DNA of 54,951 nucleotides from Acidimicrobiia bacterium (GTDB lineage Bacteria > Actinomycetota > Acidimicrobiia > IMCC26256 > PALSA-555): the NCBI GenBank assembly GCA_009694435.1, contig SHUY01000003.1, positions 1 through 54,951 of the forward strand, written 5' to 3'. This document shows, piece after piece, positions 24,433-51,714 of the stretch (the stretch's first letter is position 1; each line of letters opens with the position of its first letter). A program made the translations under genes and the position numbers. The notes beneath the pieces are model-generated. The model worked only from the letters and a program-made list of their open reading frames with translations. It did no database searches and had not been told where the DNA came from.

Positions 24433-24461
24433 TTGACCCCGAACGCATGTTCGATTAGTCT
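24433..24461 (+). promoter_or_regulatory. recA promoter with LexA (SOS) box
   Basis: TTGACC (24433-24438) and TAGTCT (24456-24461) form a promoter with a 17-nt spacer. The spacer holds the perfect palindrome CGAAC-GCAT-GTTCG (24440-24453), which matches the actinobacterial/Gram-positive LexA box CGAAC-N4-GTTCG. LexA bound there would block RNA polymerase. The mRNA leader would be about 105 nt. Confidence 0.88.
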
Positions 24462-24573: not shown

Positions 24574-25770
24574 ATGGAAGAAAAACAAGCTCTCGAAATG
24601 GCCCTCGGCCAAATTGAAAAGCAATACGGTAAGGGCGCCATCATGCGCCTAGGTGAGCGGTCGCACGTAGGTATCGCTGCTATTCCTACCGGTGCTTTGG
24701 CCCTCGACCTTGCTTTGGGTATAGGCGGGTTACCTCGAGGTCGGGTAGTAGAGATTTTTGGTCCTGAAGCCTCCGGTAAGTCAACGCTGGCGATGCACGT
24801 TGTGGCCGAGGCCCAGCGCAACGGTGGTGTGTGTGCCTACATTGATGCGGAGCACGCGATGGATCCTAATTACGCCAGTGCTATCGGCGTCAATGTTGAC
24901 GAGCTTTACATCTCTCAACCCGACACCGGAGAACAAGGCCTTGAAATCGCCGACATGTTGATTCGCTCCGGCGCGCTCGACGTGGTGGTAATCGACTCCG
25001 TGGCCGCGTTGGTGCCTCGGGCCGAAATCGAAGGTGAAATGGGTGCGAGCCATGTAGGTTTGCAGGCTCGTTTGATGAGCCAAGCCCTGCGCAAACTCAC
25101 CGCGAACTTAAATCGCTCGCGCACCGTTTGTGTGTTCATCAACCAGCTGCGAGAAAAAATCGGTGTGATGTTTGGATCACCCGAAACCACTCCGGGTGGA
25201 CGAGCGTTGAAGTTCTATTCGTCAGTTCGCCTAGACATTCGTCGTATTGAGGCGATTAAGGATGGCGCCGAGGTTACGGGTAACCGCACTCGAGTAAAAG
25301 TGGTGAAAAATAAGGTTTCCCCACCGTTTCGCCAGGCTGAATTCGACATTATGTACGGCAAGGGCATCAGCCAAGAAGGGTCACTACTCGATGTTGGAGT
25401 AGACCTCGGAATCATCAATAAGGCTGGAGCTTGGTTCACTTACGAAGGTGAACAACTAGGTCAAGGACGGGAGAACTCCAAAGTGTTCTTGGCTGAACAC
25501 GTCGACATGATGCTGGAAATTTTGGAGAAGATCCGGGTCGCCGCCGGCATTGGCGACTTCGAAGCCGTTGACGCGGCTCGAGATGCTGCCGGCTTGGCTG
25601 CTATTGCCGAAGAAATGAAAGTAATGACCGAGGCGGCTACGGCCGAAAAGGCCAAGGCCAACGGTAACGGCTCAACTCCCGAGCCCGACCCGACGGTTGT
25701 GGACGAACCCGCCCCTGCGCCGACTAAGGCCAAAGCGACTAAGAAGCCGGCTAACGCGGAAGCGGTTTAA
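24574..25770 (+). CDS. recA: Recombinase RecA
   Basis: ATP-dependent strand-exchange protein and coprotease for LexA. In 398 residues: N-terminal [18 protein letters not shown], Walker [10 protein letters not shown] at 63-71, Walker [15 protein letters not shown]1/L2 loops with [27 protein letters not shown], and a C-terminal acidic/Ala-Lys-Pro-rich tail (about residues 340-398) longer than in E. coli. The Shine-Dalgarno CAGGAG lies 8 nt before ATG 24574. No recX gene follows; a minus-strand permease converges on it with a 4-nt overlap. Confidence 0.98.
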
Positions 25771-33983: not shown

Positions 33984-34613
33984 TTAGAAGCGCCGCAACA
34001 GAGTGACGACCTTGCCGTAGATCGAAATCTCATTAGGTGCAAAAACCATCTCTTCCATGGTGGAGTTTTCGGGTCGTAAAATAACTTGACCGTCACGACG
34101 CAAGAAAGTTTTTACCGTTGCCTCTTCTCCGGGTATTCCGGCTACTACGATTTCACCTTGTTCAGCCGTGGGCTGATGACGCACGACGACGTGATCGCCG
34201 TCGACTATCCCGACGTCAATCATTGAGTCGCCTCGTACTCTCAACATGAACAGTTCGCCTGATCCGGTGAAGTCTTCGGGCATCGGGATGGTTTCCTCGA
34301 TGTTTTCTTCGGCCAACACTCCCACTCCGGCGGCCACATCGCCCACGATAGGAATATGGCGCACCGGGCGGCGCTCTACTGCCGCGCCCGAGGCCGAGTC
34401 GTAGACCAATTCCATCGCCCGAGGCTTGGCTGGGTCGCGCTTAATGAAGCCCTTGTCTTGGAGGGCGGCAAGGTGAGCGTGAACGGTTGAGCTCGACGAG
34501 AGGCCAATGGCGTCACCTATTTCTCGCACGCTGGGCGGATATCCCCGAGTGCGGACCTCGGTGTCGATGAATTCAAGGACTTGGCGCTGGCGGTCAGTCA
34601 GATCTTGGCTCAT
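33984..34613 (-). CDS. lexA: SOS repressor LexA
   Basis: Repressor-protease of 209 residues. N-terminal winged helix-turn-helix (LTDRQRQVLEFIDTEV...SVREIGDAIGLSSSSTVHAHL), Ala95-Gly96 self-cleavage site in DVAAGVG, and the catalytic dyad Ser130 (RGDSMID) and Lys168 (ATVKTF). RecA on ssDNA triggers cleavage. ATG 34613 has AAGGAG at 7 nt spacing. SOS boxes begin about 94 nt upstream, so the gene is autoregulated. Confidence 0.98.
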   Translation of the reverse strand: MSQDLTDRQRQVLEFIDTEVRTRGYPPSVREIGDAIGLSSSSTVHAHLAALQDKGFIKRDPAKPRAMELVYDSASGAAVERRPVRHIPIVGDVAAGVGVLAEENIEETIPMPEDFTGSGELFMLRVRGDSMIDVGIVDGDHVVVRHQPTAEQGEIVVAGIPGEEATVKTFLRRDGQVILRPENSTMEEMVFAPNEISIYGKVVTLLRRF

Positions 34614-34697: not shown

Positions 34698-34720
34698 ACC
34701 CTAACACGAATATATGTTCG
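34698..34720 (-). promoter_or_regulatory. lexA promoter candidate with SOS box 1
   Basis: SOS box CGAA-TATATG-TTCG (34707-34720; one base off CGAAC-N4-GTTCG) lies 3 bp from a minus-strand TAGGGT (plus ACCCTA 34698-34703) that can serve as the -10 of lexA. The leader would be about 80 nt. No convincing -35 is seen. Confidence 0.5.
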
Positions 34721-34723
34721 GGG

Positions 34724-34781
34724 CGAACATTTGTTCTTGACTAGCGAACGTATGTTCTGCCATAATACGAACATACGTTCG
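34724..34781 (+). promoter_or_regulatory. LysM-gene promoter with three further SOS boxes
   Basis: TTGACT (34737-34742) and CATAAT (34761-34766) form a promoter (18-nt spacer) directed at the LysM gene. Three LexA boxes cover it: CGAACATTTGTTCT (34724-34737), CGAACGTATGTTCT (34745-34758) and CGAACATACGTTCG (34768-34781). They lie on the -35 edge, in the spacer and on the transcription start. With box 1 at 34707 this makes four operators in 75 bp. Confidence 0.9.
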
Positions 34782-34881: not shown

Positions 34882-35310
34882 ATGACTGCCATTACTACTA
34901 ATCCCGGCTTTATCACGATCGGTCCCGCGACCCGCCGTGTGAGCTCACGTCCGACCCCTCGGCGTAATGCTCGGTTTCCTGTATCTCGGGTCTCTCGGAG
35001 TCGGGTTTCTCGAGCCACCTACCTACGTCGCCGGCTTACGGTTGCCGTTTTGGCGTTGGGGCTCGTGGTCATGGTGGCCCAGGCTGGCAGCGCGCTCGGA
35101 GGTGACCCCCTCTCATCCTCCGAGCGCACTCCACCTAGTGGAGCAGTTTCTTCTGAGCGAACCGTCGTGGTGCGCTCCGGCGACTCTTTATGGTCGATAG
35201 TTTCGCGCTTGGCCCCCGATCAAGACCCTCGACCCCTGGTTGATGATTTGTCTATGGCTCGCAACGGAGCACCGTTAATCCCCGGCGAAGTCATCAGTCT
35301 CGATCAATAA
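34882..35310 (+). CDS. SOS-induced LysM membrane protein, candidate cell-division suppressor (YneA/DivS/Rv2719c type)
   Basis: Protein of 142 residues: Arg/Ser-rich cytoplasmic N-terminus, one membrane helix (about 52-71), a short extracellular linker and a C-terminal LysM domain (about 94-140, TVVVRSGDSLWSIVSRL...PLIPGEVISL). It is divergent from lexA and followed by nrdR, as are yneA in Bacillus, divS in Corynebacterium and Rv2719c in Mycobacterium. These small proteins delay septation during DNA damage. The sequences of such proteins are poorly conserved, so the role is inferred from architecture, SOS boxes and position. Shine-Dalgarno CAGGAGAG precedes ATG 34882. Confidence 0.82.
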   Translation: MTAITTNPGFITIGPATRRVSSRPTPRRNARFPVSRVSRSRVSRATYLRRRLTVAVLALGLVVMVAQAGSALGGDPLSSSERTPPSGAVSSERTVVVRSGDSLWSIVSRLAPDQDPRPLVDDLSMARNGAPLIPGEVISLDQ

Positions 35311-46092: not shown

Positions 46093-47151
46093 ATGGCCAA
46101 TTCATCAACGTCTAGCGAGTTATGGCCCGATGTCTTGGGGCGTTTATTGGCCGGCGACGATTTGCCCGATGATTTAGTGGAAGCGACATTCACCCAAATC
46201 CTTACCGGCGCGGCCACTGACGCCCAGATCGCGGGTCTTGTGGTTGGTCTGCGGGCTAAGGGTGAGTCGGCGAGCGAACTGGCGGCCATGGTCCGTACCA
46301 CCTTGGGTTTCGCCGAAAATCTCACGATTGCTCCGGGCACGCCATTGGTGGATACCTGCGGCACGGGAGGAGATCGATCCGGAACAGTGAACGTTTCCAC
46401 TATGGCGGCTTTGATCGCGGCCGGAGCCGGCGCGCGCGTAGTCAAACACGGGAATCGAGCGAGCTCTTCTCGGTGTGGATCGGCCGATGTCCTGGAAGCG
46501 CTCGGCGTGGCTATCGACCTAGGTCCCCAAGGTGTGGCTCGGTGCGTCGAAGAAGTGGGGATCGGATTTTGTTTTGCCCCTCGGTTTCACGCGTCATTTC
46601 GCTTCGCCGCCGCCGCTCGACGCGACTTAGGGGTTACTACCACTTTCAATTTGCTGGGCCCGCTGGCGAACCCCGCGCGGGTTAAAAATCAGGCCCTTGG
46701 AGTTTCTGACGCCAACATGGCCGAAAAAATGATTATCACTTTGGCCGAATTGGGCTCTGAGCATGTGTTGGTATTCTTTGGCCACGATGGGCTTGACGAA
46801 TTGACTACCACAACCACTTCAACAATTTTTGAACTTAAAGCTGGGTCTATTACTAATTATAAAATTGACCCCGCGGACTTAGGCTTAACGAGAGCGACCT
46901 CTAAAAGCTTGGCCGGAGGTGATGCCAACACTAACGCCGCCATAGTAGGTAAAACTTTGACCGGAGAGATCGGCCCTGTGCGCGACATAGCGGTTCTTAA
47001 CGCCGCCGCCGCTCTAGTGGCGGCCGATCACGCTACTGATTTAAGTGAAGGTATCAGTCAGGCAATCGCGGCGATTGACTCGGGAGCAGCTCGGGCAATT
47101 CTAGAGAGCTGGGTCGTGGTTAGTTCCGAAGCACGAGCGAGTGAAGCCTGA
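46093..47151 (+). CDS. trpD: Anthranilate phosphoribosyltransferase
   Basis: 352 residues. Substrate motifs: DTCGTGGDRSGTVNVST (PRPP loop), KHGNRASSSRCGSADVLEALGV, FAPRFHASFR, and FNLLGPLANPA. It transfers phosphoribose to anthranilate, the second step of tryptophan synthesis. No other trp gene is nearby; a lone trpD is common in actinobacteria. It overlaps the next gene by 1 nt (TGATG). Confidence 0.95.
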   Translation: MANSSTSSELWPDVLGRLLAGDDLPDDLVEATFTQILTGAATDAQIAGLVVGLRAKGESASELAAMVRTTLGFAENLTIAPGTPLVDTCGTGGDRSGTVNVSTMAALIAAGAGARVVKHGNRASSSRCGSADVLEALGVAIDLGPQGVARCVEEVGIGFCFAPRFHASFRFAAAARRDLGVTTTFNLLGPLANPARVKNQALGVSDANMAEKMIITLAELGSEHVLVFFGHDGLDELTTTTTSTIFELKAGSITNYKIDPADLGLTRATSKSLAGGDANTNAAIVGKTLTGEIGPVRDIAVLNAAAALVAADHATDLSEGISQAIAAIDSGAARAILESWVVVSSEARASEA

Positions 47152-47702
47152 TGGCTCGCGCTATCCGCTGCGGATCGTGCGGTGCTTCTAATCCGCTCGA
47201 ATCTAAAGTTGGGGTTACGACTCAAATGTGTCATTCGTGCGGCACGGCAATAACTATTCCTCCCAGTGCGCAAACTCGGCGGGCTAGTGATCGCCCAATT
47301 CGTCCGCCGGCTGCTCTCGCTCCGGTTAAACAACGCTCGCCCCGACGGGTCTCCACTAACCCAGTAGTTAGAACCGAGTCGGCTAACCAACCTCGCACGC
47401 GTCCTTGGCTGGTGAGGGTCTTGGCTTGGGTGCTCGCGCTCCCTCTCGCCTTTTTATTAGTTGGCATTCCCGCTCGACTCGGCGGCTATTTAACTAGTCA
47501 AAAACTGCTTGACGTTATTATTAAGCACAACATCACTCGTTTTGTTCCCGTTTTTTTGATTATCTTGGCGTGGGCGTTGGCCACAGCAATATTGGTAACT
47601 CTCATTGTTGAGATATTAAGTCTTCTTCTTGATCGCCGGCGTTTGCGCCGAGCAGAAAAGCGTTCCTCTTCTTCTCAACCACAAGCACTGCAGACTAGGT
47701 AG
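47151..47702 (+). CDS. Zinc-ribbon membrane protein of unknown function
   Basis: 183 residues. An N-terminal zinc ribbon has C7, C10, C27 and C30 (IRCGSCG; MCHSCG), followed by an Arg/Pro-rich linker and two membrane segments (about 84-104 and 127-155). The C-terminus is basic. No function is recognised. It is coupled to trpD through TGATG. It converges with the exonuclease gene, 2 nt apart. Confidence 0.7.
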   Translation: MARAIRCGSCGASNPLESKVGVTTQMCHSCGTAITIPPSAQTRRASDRPIRPPAALAPVKQRSPRRVSTNPVVRTESANQPRTRPWLVRVLAWVLALPLAFLLVGIPARLGGYLTSQKLLDVIIKHNITRFVPVFLIILAWALATAILVTLIVEILSLLLDRRRLRRAEKRSSSSQPQALQTR

Positions 47703-47704
47703 GA

Positions 47705-48313
47705 CTAAATAGTCAATCCTTTTGGTAAATCAACACCGTCAGTTGCGGCCCGATCCATAAGTGCATGTAATACTTCCACCGTAGCTCTAGCATCAGCCAA
47801 GGCACGATGCGATGGTTCGGTTTTGACTTTAAAATACTGCGCCAGCGTATTGAGACGAAAATTTGGCACTTCGCCGGGTATTAATTTGCGGGCAAGAAAA
47901 AGAGTGTCAATTTTTTTGTGCCTCAGTTTTTTTCGCTCGCTCGCTTGTAGGGCAAAATCGAGAAAAGAAATATCGAAACTTACGTTGTGTCCACCAATAA
48001 ACGTATTTCTCGGTGATCCGAGAAACTCAAGCAGCAATGGTAAAACCTCATTTATAACCGGTTTAGATTTGACCATGGCGTTAGTTATCCCTGTGAGGTT
48101 AGTTATGACGCTCGGGATTTTCTCTTCTGGGTTTATTAAAGTCTGAAACTCGCCCAGGAGCGTTTTCCCACAATATTTGATCGCGGCGATTTCGGTAATT
48201 GCCGCCCCCGTGGGCGAGATCCCGGTGGTTTCGATATCAATAATTACCAAGGCTTCTTTCAACACCGACCCGTCGGCCGCGGTTTTAGCGTTGCTGGGGG
48301 TGATGATGGCCAT
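47705..48313 (-). CDS. DEDDh 3'-5' exonuclease (DnaQ/PolC epsilon-like)
   Basis: 202 residues. ExoI DIETTG (D26, E28), ExoII GHNVSFDISFLDF, and ExoIII HRALADARAT near the C-terminus; these give the full DEDDh catalytic set. It is free-standing and could be a proofreading subunit or a repair exonuclease. The minus-strand start ATG 48313 has AAGGTG 7 nt upstream, and a TAAGGT there may also serve as a -10. A LexA box abuts this element, so the gene is probably SOS-induced. The C-terminus has no polymerase-binding domain that I recognise. Confidence 0.9.
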   Translation of the reverse strand: MAIITPSNAKTAADGSVLKEALVIIDIETTGISPTGAAITEIAAIKYCGKTLLGEFQTLINPEEKIPSVITNLTGITNAMVKSKPVINEVLPLLLEFLGSPRNTFIGGHNVSFDISFLDFALQASERKKLRHKKIDTLFLARKLIPGEVPNFRLNTLAQYFKVKTEPSHRALADARATVEVLHALMDRAATDGVDLPKGLTI

Positions 48314-48328
48314 ATCTATTCACCTTAG

Positions 48329-48342
48329 CGAACATGTGTTCG
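48329..48342. promoter_or_regulatory. LexA (SOS) box between exonuclease and zinc-ribbon/NYN genes
   Basis: CGAACATGTGTTCG is a perfect CGAAC-N4-GTTCG palindrome. It is 1 bp from the minus-strand TAAGGT of the exonuclease and covers the -35 position of the plus-strand TACACT (48362-48367) of the zinc-ribbon gene. One LexA dimer could therefore control both directions. Confidence 0.85.
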
Positions 48343-48361
48343 AAATCCTTGGATCTCGGGA

Positions 48362-48367
48362 TACACT
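48362..48367 (+). promoter_or_regulatory. Leaderless-type -10 element of the zinc-ribbon gene (TACACT)
   Basis: TACACT lies exactly 6 nt before ATG 48374 without a Shine-Dalgarno sequence. The bases 48339-48344 (TTCGAA) occupy the -35 position and overlap the SOS box. Confidence 0.55.
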
Positions 48368-48373
48368 CGCCCT

Positions 48374-48583
48374 ATGAGCTCTCGATACCGCTGTGATGCC
48401 TGCGGCAACTTGACCCGCTTCAATGTCACCGTCACTCGCCGCACGGCTGAGTTCCATCACTTCAGCGTAGGGGGCGATCTGGAAGTTGAAGATCAGGAAC
48501 TTTTGTCCGAAAAAATCGAAACCGTTCAGTGCCGCTGGTGCGGAGCAGAAGCAGCCGAGTTGACCGCGGAGTCGGCTTTATGA
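48374..48583 (+). CDS. Small zinc-ribbon protein
   Basis: 69 residues with two CxxC knuckles: C8/C11 (RCDACG) and C53/C56 (QCRWCG), separated by a beta-rich acidic stretch (EFHHFSVGGDLEVEDQELL). This fits a single zinc ribbon. Its stop overlaps the ATG of the NYN gene by 4 nt, so both are translated together. No known family name is recognised. It may act as a nucleic-acid or protein adaptor for the NYN nuclease. Confidence 0.75.
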   Translation: MSSRYRCDACGNLTRFNVTVTRRTAEFHHFSVGGDLEVEDQELLSEKIETVQCRWCGAEAAELTAESAL

Positions 48584-49968
48584 CTTCTATCCCCGAATCC
48601 ACCGTATCGAGTGTTGATGCTCCACCAATTCCCGAATCGCTTCTTGGGCCACTGCTCGACGCGGCGGCCGACTCGTTCGGAAGTTTTTCTTCCGAATTGC
48701 CGGCAGTGCTGCGCCCGTTGATCGGTTTTGATCGCCGAGGGCTTTCTCACGGGCCGGCTCGAGTTCAATTGCAACGTGCGATTGAAATCGATCCCGCTTT
48801 CCGGGACTACGTTTGTGAAGTATTTATTAGTCGTGAGGCCACCATTCAGGCGCTTGCGGATTGGGATATCGAGTCGGGCTTAGAAGTTATTACTGATGCC
48901 GCTCAGCGATCCGATTTGGCGCTCTTGGCGTCAGCTCTTTACGCGGCTCGTCCATCTGGGTGGGAGTTCGGTCTGGGCTTAATTGTCGCCCAAGCCGATC
49001 AGGTTCGCTCTGACGATGAGCGAGCCGATGACGCCAAGGCGAGACAAACTGAGATCGACGCTCTTATCGAAGCCCGTCGCCGCGCGGAGGACTCTCGGGC
49101 AGAGGCAGAAAACAAAGCCAAAAATCTTGAAGATCAGTTAAAAGAAGAACGACGATCGCGCCGCGAGCGTGAATTGGTGGCCGAGCGCACGGTTTCCCTG
49201 GCCAACAAGAAAGACCAAGCGGCCCTTGCGGCTATCGCGGCGGCAGAAGCATCGGTCAGTAAGGCCGAATCTTTAACTGCTCGTGAGGCCGATCGCGCCC
49301 GAGCCGCGGAGTCGGCCCTGCGAGACTTGCGGCGCGAGTCGGGTGAATCGGTGGCCCCATCGCCCCCACTTTCTTCTGATGACTTACACGTCTTGACTCA
49401 AGCTGCCAACACTGCTCGCCAGTTGGCCACTCGGCTTGAAGGGGTAGTCACCACTACTCAGGTAGTGGCAAGAACCGTGGCCACCAACCCAGCCGATGGG
49501 TCAGTCAAGGCCACCAAGAAACGCATTCCTCCTACTTGTCCGCCCGGTTTAGTCGCTGATTCTCCCGACGCCCTCGACGCCATGTTACGCACGCGCGGAA
49601 TCTATTTAGTTGTTGATGGCTACAACATCTCTATGACCGCATGGCCGGAGGCTCGCATCTCTGACCAACGAGAGCGTTTACTCGTTGCTCTTGATCGACT
49701 CCACCAACGACTGCGCTGTGATGTGGTGGTGGTCTTCGATGGTTCTGATGCCGCGGCCACCGTTCCCGCCAAGCGGCCTGGGGTTCGAGTTATTTTTTCG
49801 ACGGGAGGAGAAAAGGCCGACCCAGTGGTGGTGCGAGAGGTAGATCAATTGCCGGCCAATACCTCGGTAATTGTGGCTTCATCAGACCGTTGGGTGGCCG
49901 AACACTCCGAAGACCTCGGCGCCTTAGCTGTTTCCGCCTCTTCGTTGGTTGAGGTTCTGCGTCGATAG
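48580..49968 (+). CDS. NYN (PIN-like) nuclease domain protein with coiled coil
   Basis: 462 residues from ATG 48580. N-terminal helical domain (about 1-150), long coiled coil (about 165-275, with repeated EARRRAEDSRAEAEN-type heptads), a linker, then a C-terminal NYN/YacP-like domain: LVVDGYNIS (D346), VVVVFDGSDA and VIVASSDRWVAEH supply the acidic residues of a Mg-dependent RNase. Similar proteins occur in actinobacteria, but the target RNA is not established. It is coupled to a zinc-ribbon peptide and to a shared LexA box with an exonuclease. Confidence 0.82.
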   Translation: MTSIPESTVSSVDAPPIPESLLGPLLDAAADSFGSFSSELPAVLRPLIGFDRRGLSHGPARVQLQRAIEIDPAFRDYVCEVFISREATIQALADWDIESGLEVITDAAQRSDLALLASALYAARPSGWEFGLGLIVAQADQVRSDDERADDAKARQTEIDALIEARRRAEDSRAEAENKAKNLEDQLKEERRSRRERELVAERTVSLANKKDQAALAAIAAAEASVSKAESLTAREADRARAAESALRDLRRESGESVAPSPPLSSDDLHVLTQAANTARQLATRLEGVVTTTQVVARTVATNPADGSVKATKKRIPPTCPPGLVADSPDALDAMLRTRGIYLVVDGYNISMTAWPEARISDQRERLLVALDRLHQRLRCDVVVVFDGSDAAATVPAKRPGVRVIFSTGGEKADPVVVREVDQLPANTSVIVASSDRWVAEHSEDLGALAVSASSLVEVLRR

Positions 49969-50031: not shown

Positions 50032-50391
50032 GTGGAGTCTTCGGCTAGGGTCGCGAAAACTACTAAAGCCTGCAGGGGTAAATCCTTGCCTGCGTCGCTC
50101 ACCGAGTCTCAGTCCACTGACCTAGCGAGCGCTTTTAAAGTTCTGGCCGACCCAATTCGAGTCCGCCTACTTAGTCTTATCGCCGCTTCCCCCGAAGGCG
50201 AAGTTTGCGCCTGTGATCTCGTCGATACCTTAAAACGCAGTCAACCGACTATTAGTCATCACCTTGGGGTGCTTTGTGACGCGGGTTTTCTTAGTCGAGA
50301 GCGACAAGGCACCTGGATTTGGTATTCAGTTGTACCTGAGCGTTGGGCACAACTGAGGGTGGCTTTTGATTCTGCCACCGCTCTTGTTTGA
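50032..50391 (+). CDS. arsR: ArsR family metalloregulator
   Basis: 119 residues. Winged helix with the recognition helix RSQPTISHHLGVLCDAGFL, and an arsenite-binding motif EVCACDLV (matching the classic ELCVCDL, Cys-x-Cys). This implies release from the operator by As(III) or Sb(III). GTG 50032 is supported by the leaderless promoter. Its stop overlaps the aquaporin ATG (TGATG). It is the first gene of an arsenic operon. Confidence 0.93.
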   Translation: MESSARVAKTTKACRGKSLPASLTESQSTDLASAFKVLADPIRVRLLSLIAASPEGEVCACDLVDTLKRSQPTISHHLGVLCDAGFLSRERQGTWIWYSVVPERWAQLRVAFDSATALV

Positions 50392-51080
50392 TGAGCCACA
50401 ATCACGTTCCTCTGGTACGGAGATTGATAGGTGAAGTCGTAGGTACGGCCTTGCTTTTAATCGCGGTAGTGGGCTCGGGGATTATGGCGCAAAAATTAAG
50501 TCCTAATGACGTAGGGCTTCAGTTACTTGAAAATGCTTTTGCTACCGGAGTGGCGTTAGTGGCCATCATCTTGGCCATTGGCCCCGTTTCGGGAGCTCAT
50601 TTGAATCCAGTAGTTACCGGAGCTGATCGATATTTTGGGGGCATCACTACTCGAGCCGCCGTGGCTTATTGCGGTGCGCAAACGTTGGGAGCGTTAGTTG
50701 GAGTAATGATCGCCAACTTGATGTTCGATTACTCAGCCCTAGAACTTTCTACCAAAGTCCGAACTGGTAGCAATCTGTTTTTGAGCGAAATCGTAGCCAC
50801 GATCGGATTACTTTTGGTAATTTTTGCTATTTCGCGTTCAGGTCGGAGTCGTTATGCAGCCTTTGCTGTGGGCGCGTATATAGCCGGTGCTTATTTTTTT
50901 ACTTCCTCAACTAGCTTTGCCAACCCTGCGGTAACCGTGGGTCGTATGTTCTCTGATACTTTCGCCGGCATCGATCCCAGCTCGGTTCCCGCGTTTATCG
51001 GCGCGCAACTACTCGGGATGGTGTTAGCGGTAGGCCTGGTAGTCGTTCTTTATCCTCATAAACACCCTGAGGAGGCGTGA
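50391..51080 (+). CDS. MIP family channel, probable arsenite-conducting aquaglyceroporin (AqpS-like)
   Basis: 229 residues with six membrane segments and two half-helix motifs: HLNPVVTG (NPV instead of NPA) in the first half and FANPAVTVGR (NPA) in the second. Its place between arsR and arsC suggests it lets arsenite made by ArsC flow out, as shown for AqpS of Sinorhizobium meliloti. No ArsB or Acr3 pump gene is present in this operon, so the channel is the only obvious exit. Water or glycerol transport cannot be excluded. Confidence 0.85.
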   Translation: MSHNHVPLVRRLIGEVVGTALLLIAVVGSGIMAQKLSPNDVGLQLLENAFATGVALVAIILAIGPVSGAHLNPVVTGADRYFGGITTRAAVAYCGAQTLGALVGVMIANLMFDYSALELSTKVRTGSNLFLSEIVATIGLLLVIFAISRSGRSRYAAFAVGAYIAGAYFFTSSTSFANPAVTVGRMFSDTFAGIDPSSVPAFIGAQLLGMVLAVGLVVVLYPHKHPEEA

Positions 51081-51085
51081 CCGGA

Positions 51086-51490
51086 ATGGGCGAAAAACCT
51101 GTCGTCCTGTTTGTTTGCGTCCATAACGCTGGTCGCAGCCAGATGGCCGCCGCGTTCCTCGAGCAGTTGGCCAACCAACGGGTGCTAGTGGCTTCTGCGG
51201 GGAGTGACCCCGCGAGCCAACTAAATCCGGCGGTGATATCAGTAATGGCCGAAGAAGGCATTGATCTCACTAGCCGTTCCCCCGCGCGCCTTGACGCCCA
51301 GATGGTAAAGGCCGCCGATGTGGTGGTGACTATGGGCTGTGGCGATGCTTGCCCGATTTATCCATCGAAGCGTTATCTCGACTGGGCTTTAGCCGACCCC
51401 GCGGGCCAAGATCTTGCCTCGGTGCGGGTAATTCGTGATGAAATCAAGTCTCGGGTCGAAGCGCTGCTGGCCGAGATAACTCCCCCATAA
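51086..51490 (+). CDS. arsC: Arsenate reductase, low-molecular-weight phosphatase type
   Basis: 134 residues from ATG 51086, which has GAGGAGG at 10 nt spacing; GTG 51077 in frame is too close to that site. The P-loop CVHNAGRS (catalytic Cys11, Arg17) and the later MGCGDACPIYPSKRYLDWALADPAGQD supply the other Cys. Arsenate is reduced to arsenite with thioredoxin or mycothiol. It overlaps the aquaporin 3' region through GTGA. Confidence 0.92.
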   Translation: MGEKPVVLFVCVHNAGRSQMAAAFLEQLANQRVLVASAGSDPASQLNPAVISVMAEEGIDLTSRSPARLDAQMVKAADVVVTMGCGDACPIYPSKRYLDWALADPAGQDLASVRVIRDEIKSRVEALLAEITPP

Positions 51491-51519: not shown

Positions 51520-51714
51520 ATGAGAATCAGTTGCGACGATTGTGTGGGTCAAGGCACCGATGCGTGTACCGATTGCGTGGTTACTTTCATTTGTAACCGT
51601 GAACCGGGCGATGCCTTAATCATTGATGCCGACGAAGAACGGGCAGTGCGAGCGTTGGCTCGAGCTGGTTTGGTTCCCGAGTTACGCCACCAAACCCGAG
51701 CGTTACCTAATTAG
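51520..51714 (+). CDS. Small Cys-rich protein of unknown function
   Basis: 64 residues. Five cysteines in the first half: C5-x2-C8-x7-C16-x2-C19-x5-C25 (ISCDDCVGQGTDACTDCVV then TFIC), which suggest a metal or iron-sulfur site. The second half is a helical, charged stretch (DADEERAVRALARAGLVPELR). It starts 29 nt after arsC and may be read with it; it has a weak GATCCT 6 nt before ATG 51520. Similar short Cys-rich frames occur in actinobacteria, but I cannot name the family. Confidence 0.65.
   Translation: MRISCDDCVGQGTDACTDCVVTFICNREPGDALIIDADEERAVRALARAGLVPELRHQTRALPN

Follow-up and report, generated by a model that had tools for sequence, protein, structure and literature searches.

A conserved predicted LexA operator of a Cho-like nuclease in Acidimicrobiia and its retention beside a zinc-ribbon–NYN gene pair

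Introduction

The Cho protein of Escherichia coli, an SOS-inducible UvrC-like GIY-YIG endonuclease, is under LexA control, which fits a nuclease combining DEDDh and GIY-YIG domains being an SOS repair gene as well. The NCBIfam family PRK07883 (NF005907) bears the name 'DEDD exonuclease domain-containing protein'. A different type of nuclease, the Rae1/YacP endoribonuclease of Bacillus subtilis (PF05991; PDB 5MQ8 and 5MQ9), has the same NYN domain as one of the proteins analysed here, and its solved chain of 181 residues is essentially that domain. Among actinobacteria, the LexA regulon of Streptomyces venezuelae has been defined experimentally (PMC9380542), and the main text of that paper makes no mention of an exonuclease, GIY-YIG, UvrC or NYN (PMC9380542). 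Our literature searches on LexA with NYN, on Acidimicrobiia with LexA and on Rv2191 with UvrC returned nothing on point. No published LexA regulon for Acidimicrobiia was found, nor any publication on a LexA-run Cho-like nuclease or on a zinc-ribbon/Rae1-type pair in this class, in a search mostly of openly accessible literature.

Here we analyse a stretch of 54 951 nucleotides from an Acidimicrobiia bacterium (contig SHUY01000003.1), hereafter the window. An initial annotation of this DNA had proposed that two nucleases and an adaptor-like peptide are placed under one damage operator and act together on DNA and RNA.

Materials and methods

The comparison comprised about 200 related stretches, with loci around the zinc-ribbon and NYN genes taken from the order, the phylum and a named collection. 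LexA boxes were scored beside each gene and loci were de-duplicated; an exonuclease gene was called distant when it lay more than 350 bp from the zinc-ribbon gene. The window's own family was sampled with 12 genomes. Perfect LexA sites were sought in the 1.77-Mb assembly with the pattern CGAACN4GTTCG; the one-mismatch scan of the genome, which was at background level, was left out of the definition of the regulon.

Results

The divergent exonuclease and zinc-ribbon genes lie on the two sides of a 60-bp gap (48314–48373) that contains CGAACATGTGTTCG, an exact palindrome and perfect LexA box, in agreement with the initial annotation (Table 1). That annotation spoke of one perfect box, which holds for the gap; the window has several others, at recA and lexA, and these two genes and their boxes are located on the same contig as the gap. 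The genome scan returned five perfect sites in the assembly vs two for the backward control pattern: at recA (24440), lexA (34768) and ruvC (C40:11817), in the exonuclease/zinc-ribbon gap, and at one place without an obvious client. The cluster upstream of lexA consists of the perfect box and three one-mismatch boxes, the first from 34707. The palindrome in the gap is therefore of the host's own type, agreeing with the recA, lexA and ruvC sites, and it overlaps putative promoters. One-mismatch sites in the genome numbered 90 vs 82 for the control, so that only conservation separates real sites of this kind from background. A divergent gene at 34882 faces the lexA-upstream gap with its four boxes. 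At ruvC the perfect box (1501–1514 in locus L004, equivalent to G000:C40:11817–11830) overlaps the predicted ATG (L004 1508) and lies upstream of ruvA.

Table 1. Coordinates of features in the window
Feature	Position	Strand	Basis or remark
recA LexA box, reference site	24440..24453	.	recA ATG at 24574
Four LexA boxes upstream of lexA (33984–34613, -), reference sites	34707..34781	.	sequence scan
DEDDh 3'-5' exonuclease, 202 aa, shortened from a DEDDh-GIY-YIG-UVR form	47705..48313	-	PF00929 E=3e-31
Putative -10 TAAGGT, exonuclease promoter, abuts box	48322..48327	-	direct reading
Predicted LexA operator CGAACATGTGTTCG, common to two divergent putative promoters	48329..48342	.	exact palindrome; same site class at recA, lexA, ruvC; kept in relatives
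ATCC element, 2 nt after box, 13 nt before TACACT	48345..48348	+	5/5 conserved: window and four exonuclease-less relatives
Putative -10 TACACT, leaderless zinc-ribbon promoter	48362..48367	+	direct reading; same spacing in four relatives
Zinc-ribbon protein (69 aa) of an uncatalogued family, CX2C...CX2C motif carried by a long beta hairpin	48374..48583	+	28-member alignment
NYN (YacP/Rae1-type) nuclease, 462 aa, with a long coiled coil after a helical N-domain	48580..49968	+	PF05991 2.6e-17
Cys-rich protein, 64 aa, CDxCV..T..CxDCVV.F	51520..51714	+	follows NYN or zinc-ribbon closely in many relatives

On direct reading, the box abuts the sequence TAAGGT (48327–48322) on the exonuclease side, as had been described. 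On the other side, TACACT ends 6 nt before the zinc-ribbon ATG, which fits a leaderless promoter, and with a spacing of 17 bp the -35 element would overlap the box in its right half; the earlier proposal that the box covers the -35 position of this promoter is consistent with that arrangement. A generic sigma-70 scan of the gap scored neither putative promoter. In many exonuclease-bearing relatives the position of the ATCC element is occupied by GTCAAG, whose reverse complement, CTTGAC, may serve as the -35 of the exonuclease gene there. A PafBC-type promoter was considered for the ATCC element and set aside, since the element does not appear to fit the PafBC motif.

The exonuclease had been described as a free-standing DEDDh protein. 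Its DEDDh domain stands, with a clear PF00929 match (Table 1) and the DEDDh residues intact as judged by eye, and the protein proved to be the shortened form of a larger one. Its best NCBIfam match was PRK07883, at 217 bits vs a cut-off of 454, the alignment covering the first third of that family (E=3.9e-64). At this position complete relatives are longer, with a median of 558 aa, and contain GIY-YIG and UVR domains; a full-length protein from the window's family (P0004) matched PF00929, PF01541 (GIY-YIG) and PF02151 (UVR) and reached 581.9 bits against PRK07883 (cut-off 454). The DEDDh domain is the last one in the window protein, GIY-YIG and UVR being absent; a search 3' of its stop codon found no GIY-YIG remnant, and the sole GIY-YIG match in the genome, located at the edge of a contig, was a fragment resembling UvrC. 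By sequence, the divergent gene of the relatives is that of a predicted DnaQ-UvrC/Cho-like nuclease (DEDDh, GIY-YIG and UVR); in the window copy the GIY-YIG/UVR part is gone. What is left would be expected to process 3' ends of DNA. Five other loci (L126, L129, L145, L146 and L165) likewise have an exonuclease that is damaged or reduced to the DEDDh domain. In L129, L145 and L146, the DEDDh-only gene adjoins the zinc-ribbon gene and is followed by a frame for an AsnC-type ligand-binding domain (Pfam check in L129); no LexA box was present at these three loci. A gene for a zinc-ribbon membrane protein (47151–47702) lies downstream of trpD in the window and occurs near the same place in L036, L038 and L062.

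The 69-residue zinc-ribbon protein had no match above cut-off in Pfam, NCBIfam or PADLOC, and neither a PDB profile search nor Foldseek gave a fold match. Its structure model is confident (pLDDT 92), and an alignment of 28 members has invariant C7, C10, C53, W55 and C56; T14, R15, F16, H29 and G34 are invariant in this tight family as well. The family was present in 64 of 297 sampled genomes of the phylum, including large genomes, by their size and gene context probably Streptomyces, in which the zinc-ribbon gene precedes NYN and NlpC/P60-like genes come after the pair. We suppose the protein to be a nucleic-acid- or ribosome-binding partner.

The stop codon of the zinc-ribbon gene overlaps the start of the NYN gene (ATGA, 48580–48583) and the NYN protein has a long coiled coil, both as reported in the initial annotation; the protein consists of a helical N-domain, a long helix (128–253) and the NYN domain (341–461). 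The latter exceeded the PF05991 NYN_YacP gathering threshold (63.8 bits vs 24.6) and matched Rae1 both by profile (5mq9, 6.5e-9) and by Foldseek (3.4e-6), so that Pfam, profile and fold agree on a Rae1/YacP type. Of its acidic residues, D346 and D436 are invariant and D387 and D414 nearly so; by analogy with Rae1, the protein would cleave RNA.

In 74 loci NYN lies downstream of the zinc-ribbon gene on the same strand, and it was not found near the zinc-ribbon gene in 59 loci with at least 2.5 kb of downstream sequence. An antisense yjbQ/UPF0047 gene splits the two in many relatives; an extra operon member in this interval was considered and rejected, since the interval holds that antisense gene. 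The 64-aa Cys-rich protein, for which no Pfam match was obtained, is encoded close behind NYN in L036 and other relatives, and in the window it is parted from NYN by genes for an arsR-like regulator, an aquaporin (MIP) and a low-molecular-weight (ArsC-like) phosphatase (50032–51490). From this gene order, the zinc-ribbon, NYN and Cys-rich genes make up a separate conserved string, in which a box is often missing and which antisense yjbQ often interrupts.

A small gene overlapping one for a PIN-like nuclease, beneath a LexA box, might suggest a damage-induced toxin–antitoxin pair similar to the SOS-induced RNA toxins of E. coli. We regard this as improbable and rejected it. An obligate two-gene pair is not what was found: the zinc-ribbon–NYN pair is present as a single copy and is distributed over the phylum, not in a patchy fashion within genomes, the partners are often apart or alone (zinc-ribbon genes without a nearby NYN are common, unlike an antitoxin, and NYN without zinc-ribbon occurs in L066 and L057), and neither protein matched the defence library.

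The related loci indicate which gene the box follows. Where the exonuclease gene is adjacent to the zinc-ribbon gene, a box was present in 57 of 65 de-duplicated loci, 50 of them perfect. Where the exonuclease is distant, 29 of 31 loci had a box at the exonuclease gene and one of 31 at the zinc-ribbon gene, the latter a weak site with one mismatch. In a separate class sample of exonuclease loci the box was found in 36 of 40 (34 perfect), and 24 of these 36 boxed loci had neither zinc-ribbon nor NYN within the fetched stretch. The cultured class member IMCC26256 (L149/L062) combines the box with all three genes, exonuclease, zinc-ribbon and NYN. Outside the window's family, 52 zinc-ribbon genes had no exonuclease next to them, with 1.5 kb or more of upstream sequence available; none of the 52 had a perfect box and four had a one-mismatch box. 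The probable Streptomyces zinc-ribbon–NYN pairs had no box.

This distribution leaves next to no room for a chance palindrome, a reading to which the two hits of the backward control pattern and the background level of one-mismatch sites might otherwise have pointed. The box is conserved over many families at the same position relative to the exonuclease; outside the zone of about 210 bp upstream of the zinc-ribbon gene, the same loci contain only 29 perfect boxes in 1.3 Mb, and in 23 loci with a distant exonuclease the perfect box sits beside that gene. As far as sequence conservation can tell, the box between the exonuclease and zinc-ribbon genes is genuine and widely conserved. Because it follows the exonuclease gene, often in the absence of the window's other genes, we conclude that the general client of the operator is the DEDDh-GIY-YIG nuclease: the box is first of all the predicted operator of this Cho-like repair nuclease, widespread in Acidimicrobiia.

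The initial annotation would have been refuted by relatives that keep the genes and lack the box. With the exonuclease the box is kept nearly everywhere; with zinc-ribbon and NYN it is not, when the exonuclease is elsewhere. A coordinated SOS module, in which exonuclease, zinc-ribbon protein and NYN act jointly on DNA and RNA after damage, draws on the single operator between both transcription units, on the ATGA overlap and on an adjacency kept across many Acidimicrobiia families. We nevertheless consider it unlikely, given that the box tracks the exonuclease, that NYN is so often missing near the zinc-ribbon gene or separated from it by antisense yjbQ, and that the exonuclease has been lost in relatives that keep the zinc-ribbon–NYN pair. 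As a general unit the three-gene module is not supported by these sequences, and its appearance is mostly an effect of adjacency, because at zinc-ribbon/NYN the box is not kept when the exonuclease is elsewhere, and is absent from the probable Streptomyces pairs. The part of the proposal that survives is SOS control of zinc-ribbon–NYN in the window's own family, which the following comparison makes probable.

Four species of two genera in this family (G001, G004, G007 and G009) have the zinc-ribbon locus and lack the exonuclease genome-wide, only UvrC-like matches being found; in all four a perfect box precedes the zinc-ribbon ATG, at -45/-46. Among the window and these four relatives, identity is 100% at the ten contact bases and 93% at the -10, vs about 33% in the sequence further upstream and 50% at the four bases in the centre of the box. 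The key evidence for zinc-ribbon–NYN as a client thus comes from four species only, in two genera and of common ancestry, one of them (G009) 80% complete, and all perfect instances of the operator with zinc-ribbon/NYN independent of the exonuclease fall within the window's family. Zinc-ribbon–NYN could instead be a bystander of the SOS exonuclease, its box a leftover of a shared promoter. The missing perfect boxes at zinc-ribbon genes without an adjacent exonuclease outside this family, and the boxless probable Streptomyces pairs, would agree with that. We think it rather doubtful for the window's family: across four exonuclease-less species the contact bases are invariant and the spacing fixed while the flanks are saturated, and a box without function should have decayed. 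As such a box is not expected to survive this divergence, zinc-ribbon–NYN is probably itself a genuine LexA client in this family.

Discussion

The likely explanation, in our judgement, is a LexA operator of an SOS DEDDh-GIY-YIG nuclease situated in a promoter shared with the zinc-ribbon–NYN–Cys-rich string, such that both sides would be derepressed after damage, with zinc-ribbon–NYN having become a LexA client of its own in the window's family. LexA bound at the box would cover the -10/-35 region of both divergent promoters, and damage, through RecA-stimulated cleavage of LexA, would release both. In the window's family the exonuclease side appears to be eroding, cut to the DEDDh domain here and absent in two other genera, and with the spacing between the box and the zinc-ribbon start kept constant, the pair would have come under LexA in its own right. 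More tentatively, DNA damage in this family may induce a Rae1-type endoribonuclease together with its zinc-ribbon partner and perhaps the Cys-rich peptide, an SOS RNA-decay arm whose operator would have been taken from a vanishing Cho-like nuclease.

The DEDDh-GIY-YIG nuclease would add a widely conserved LexA target to a class for which we found no published regulon. The loss of a repair gene with retention of its operator amounts to a natural experiment, and it points to an uncharacterised pair of zinc-ribbon protein and Rae1-type RNase as likely to belong to the damage response. A further outcome of the analysis is a zinc-ribbon family not previously catalogued, whose function is testable in a tractable actinobacterium.

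Compared with described systems, the full-length relatives resemble Cho in having a UvrC-type GIY-YIG domain and a LexA box. Unlike Cho, the protein of Acidimicrobiia starts with a DEDDh domain and also contains a UVR motif, and the window copy is without the GIY-YIG part, retaining only the DEDDh domain of PRK07883. The neighbourhood recalls that of Mycobacterium tuberculosis, where the DnaQ-UvrC-like Rv2191 lies next to trpD in the trpD/Rv2191/Rv2190c neighbourhood: the window has trpD (46093–47151) near the exonuclease, and the NlpC/P60-like genes behind the probable Streptomyces zinc-ribbon–NYN pairs are presumably reminiscent of Rv2190c. The likeness of the NYN protein to Rae1 is one of sequence and fold; the window protein adds to the NYN domain a helical domain and a helix of about 125 residues and, unlike Rae1, it is accompanied by a zinc-ribbon partner gene and a LexA box.
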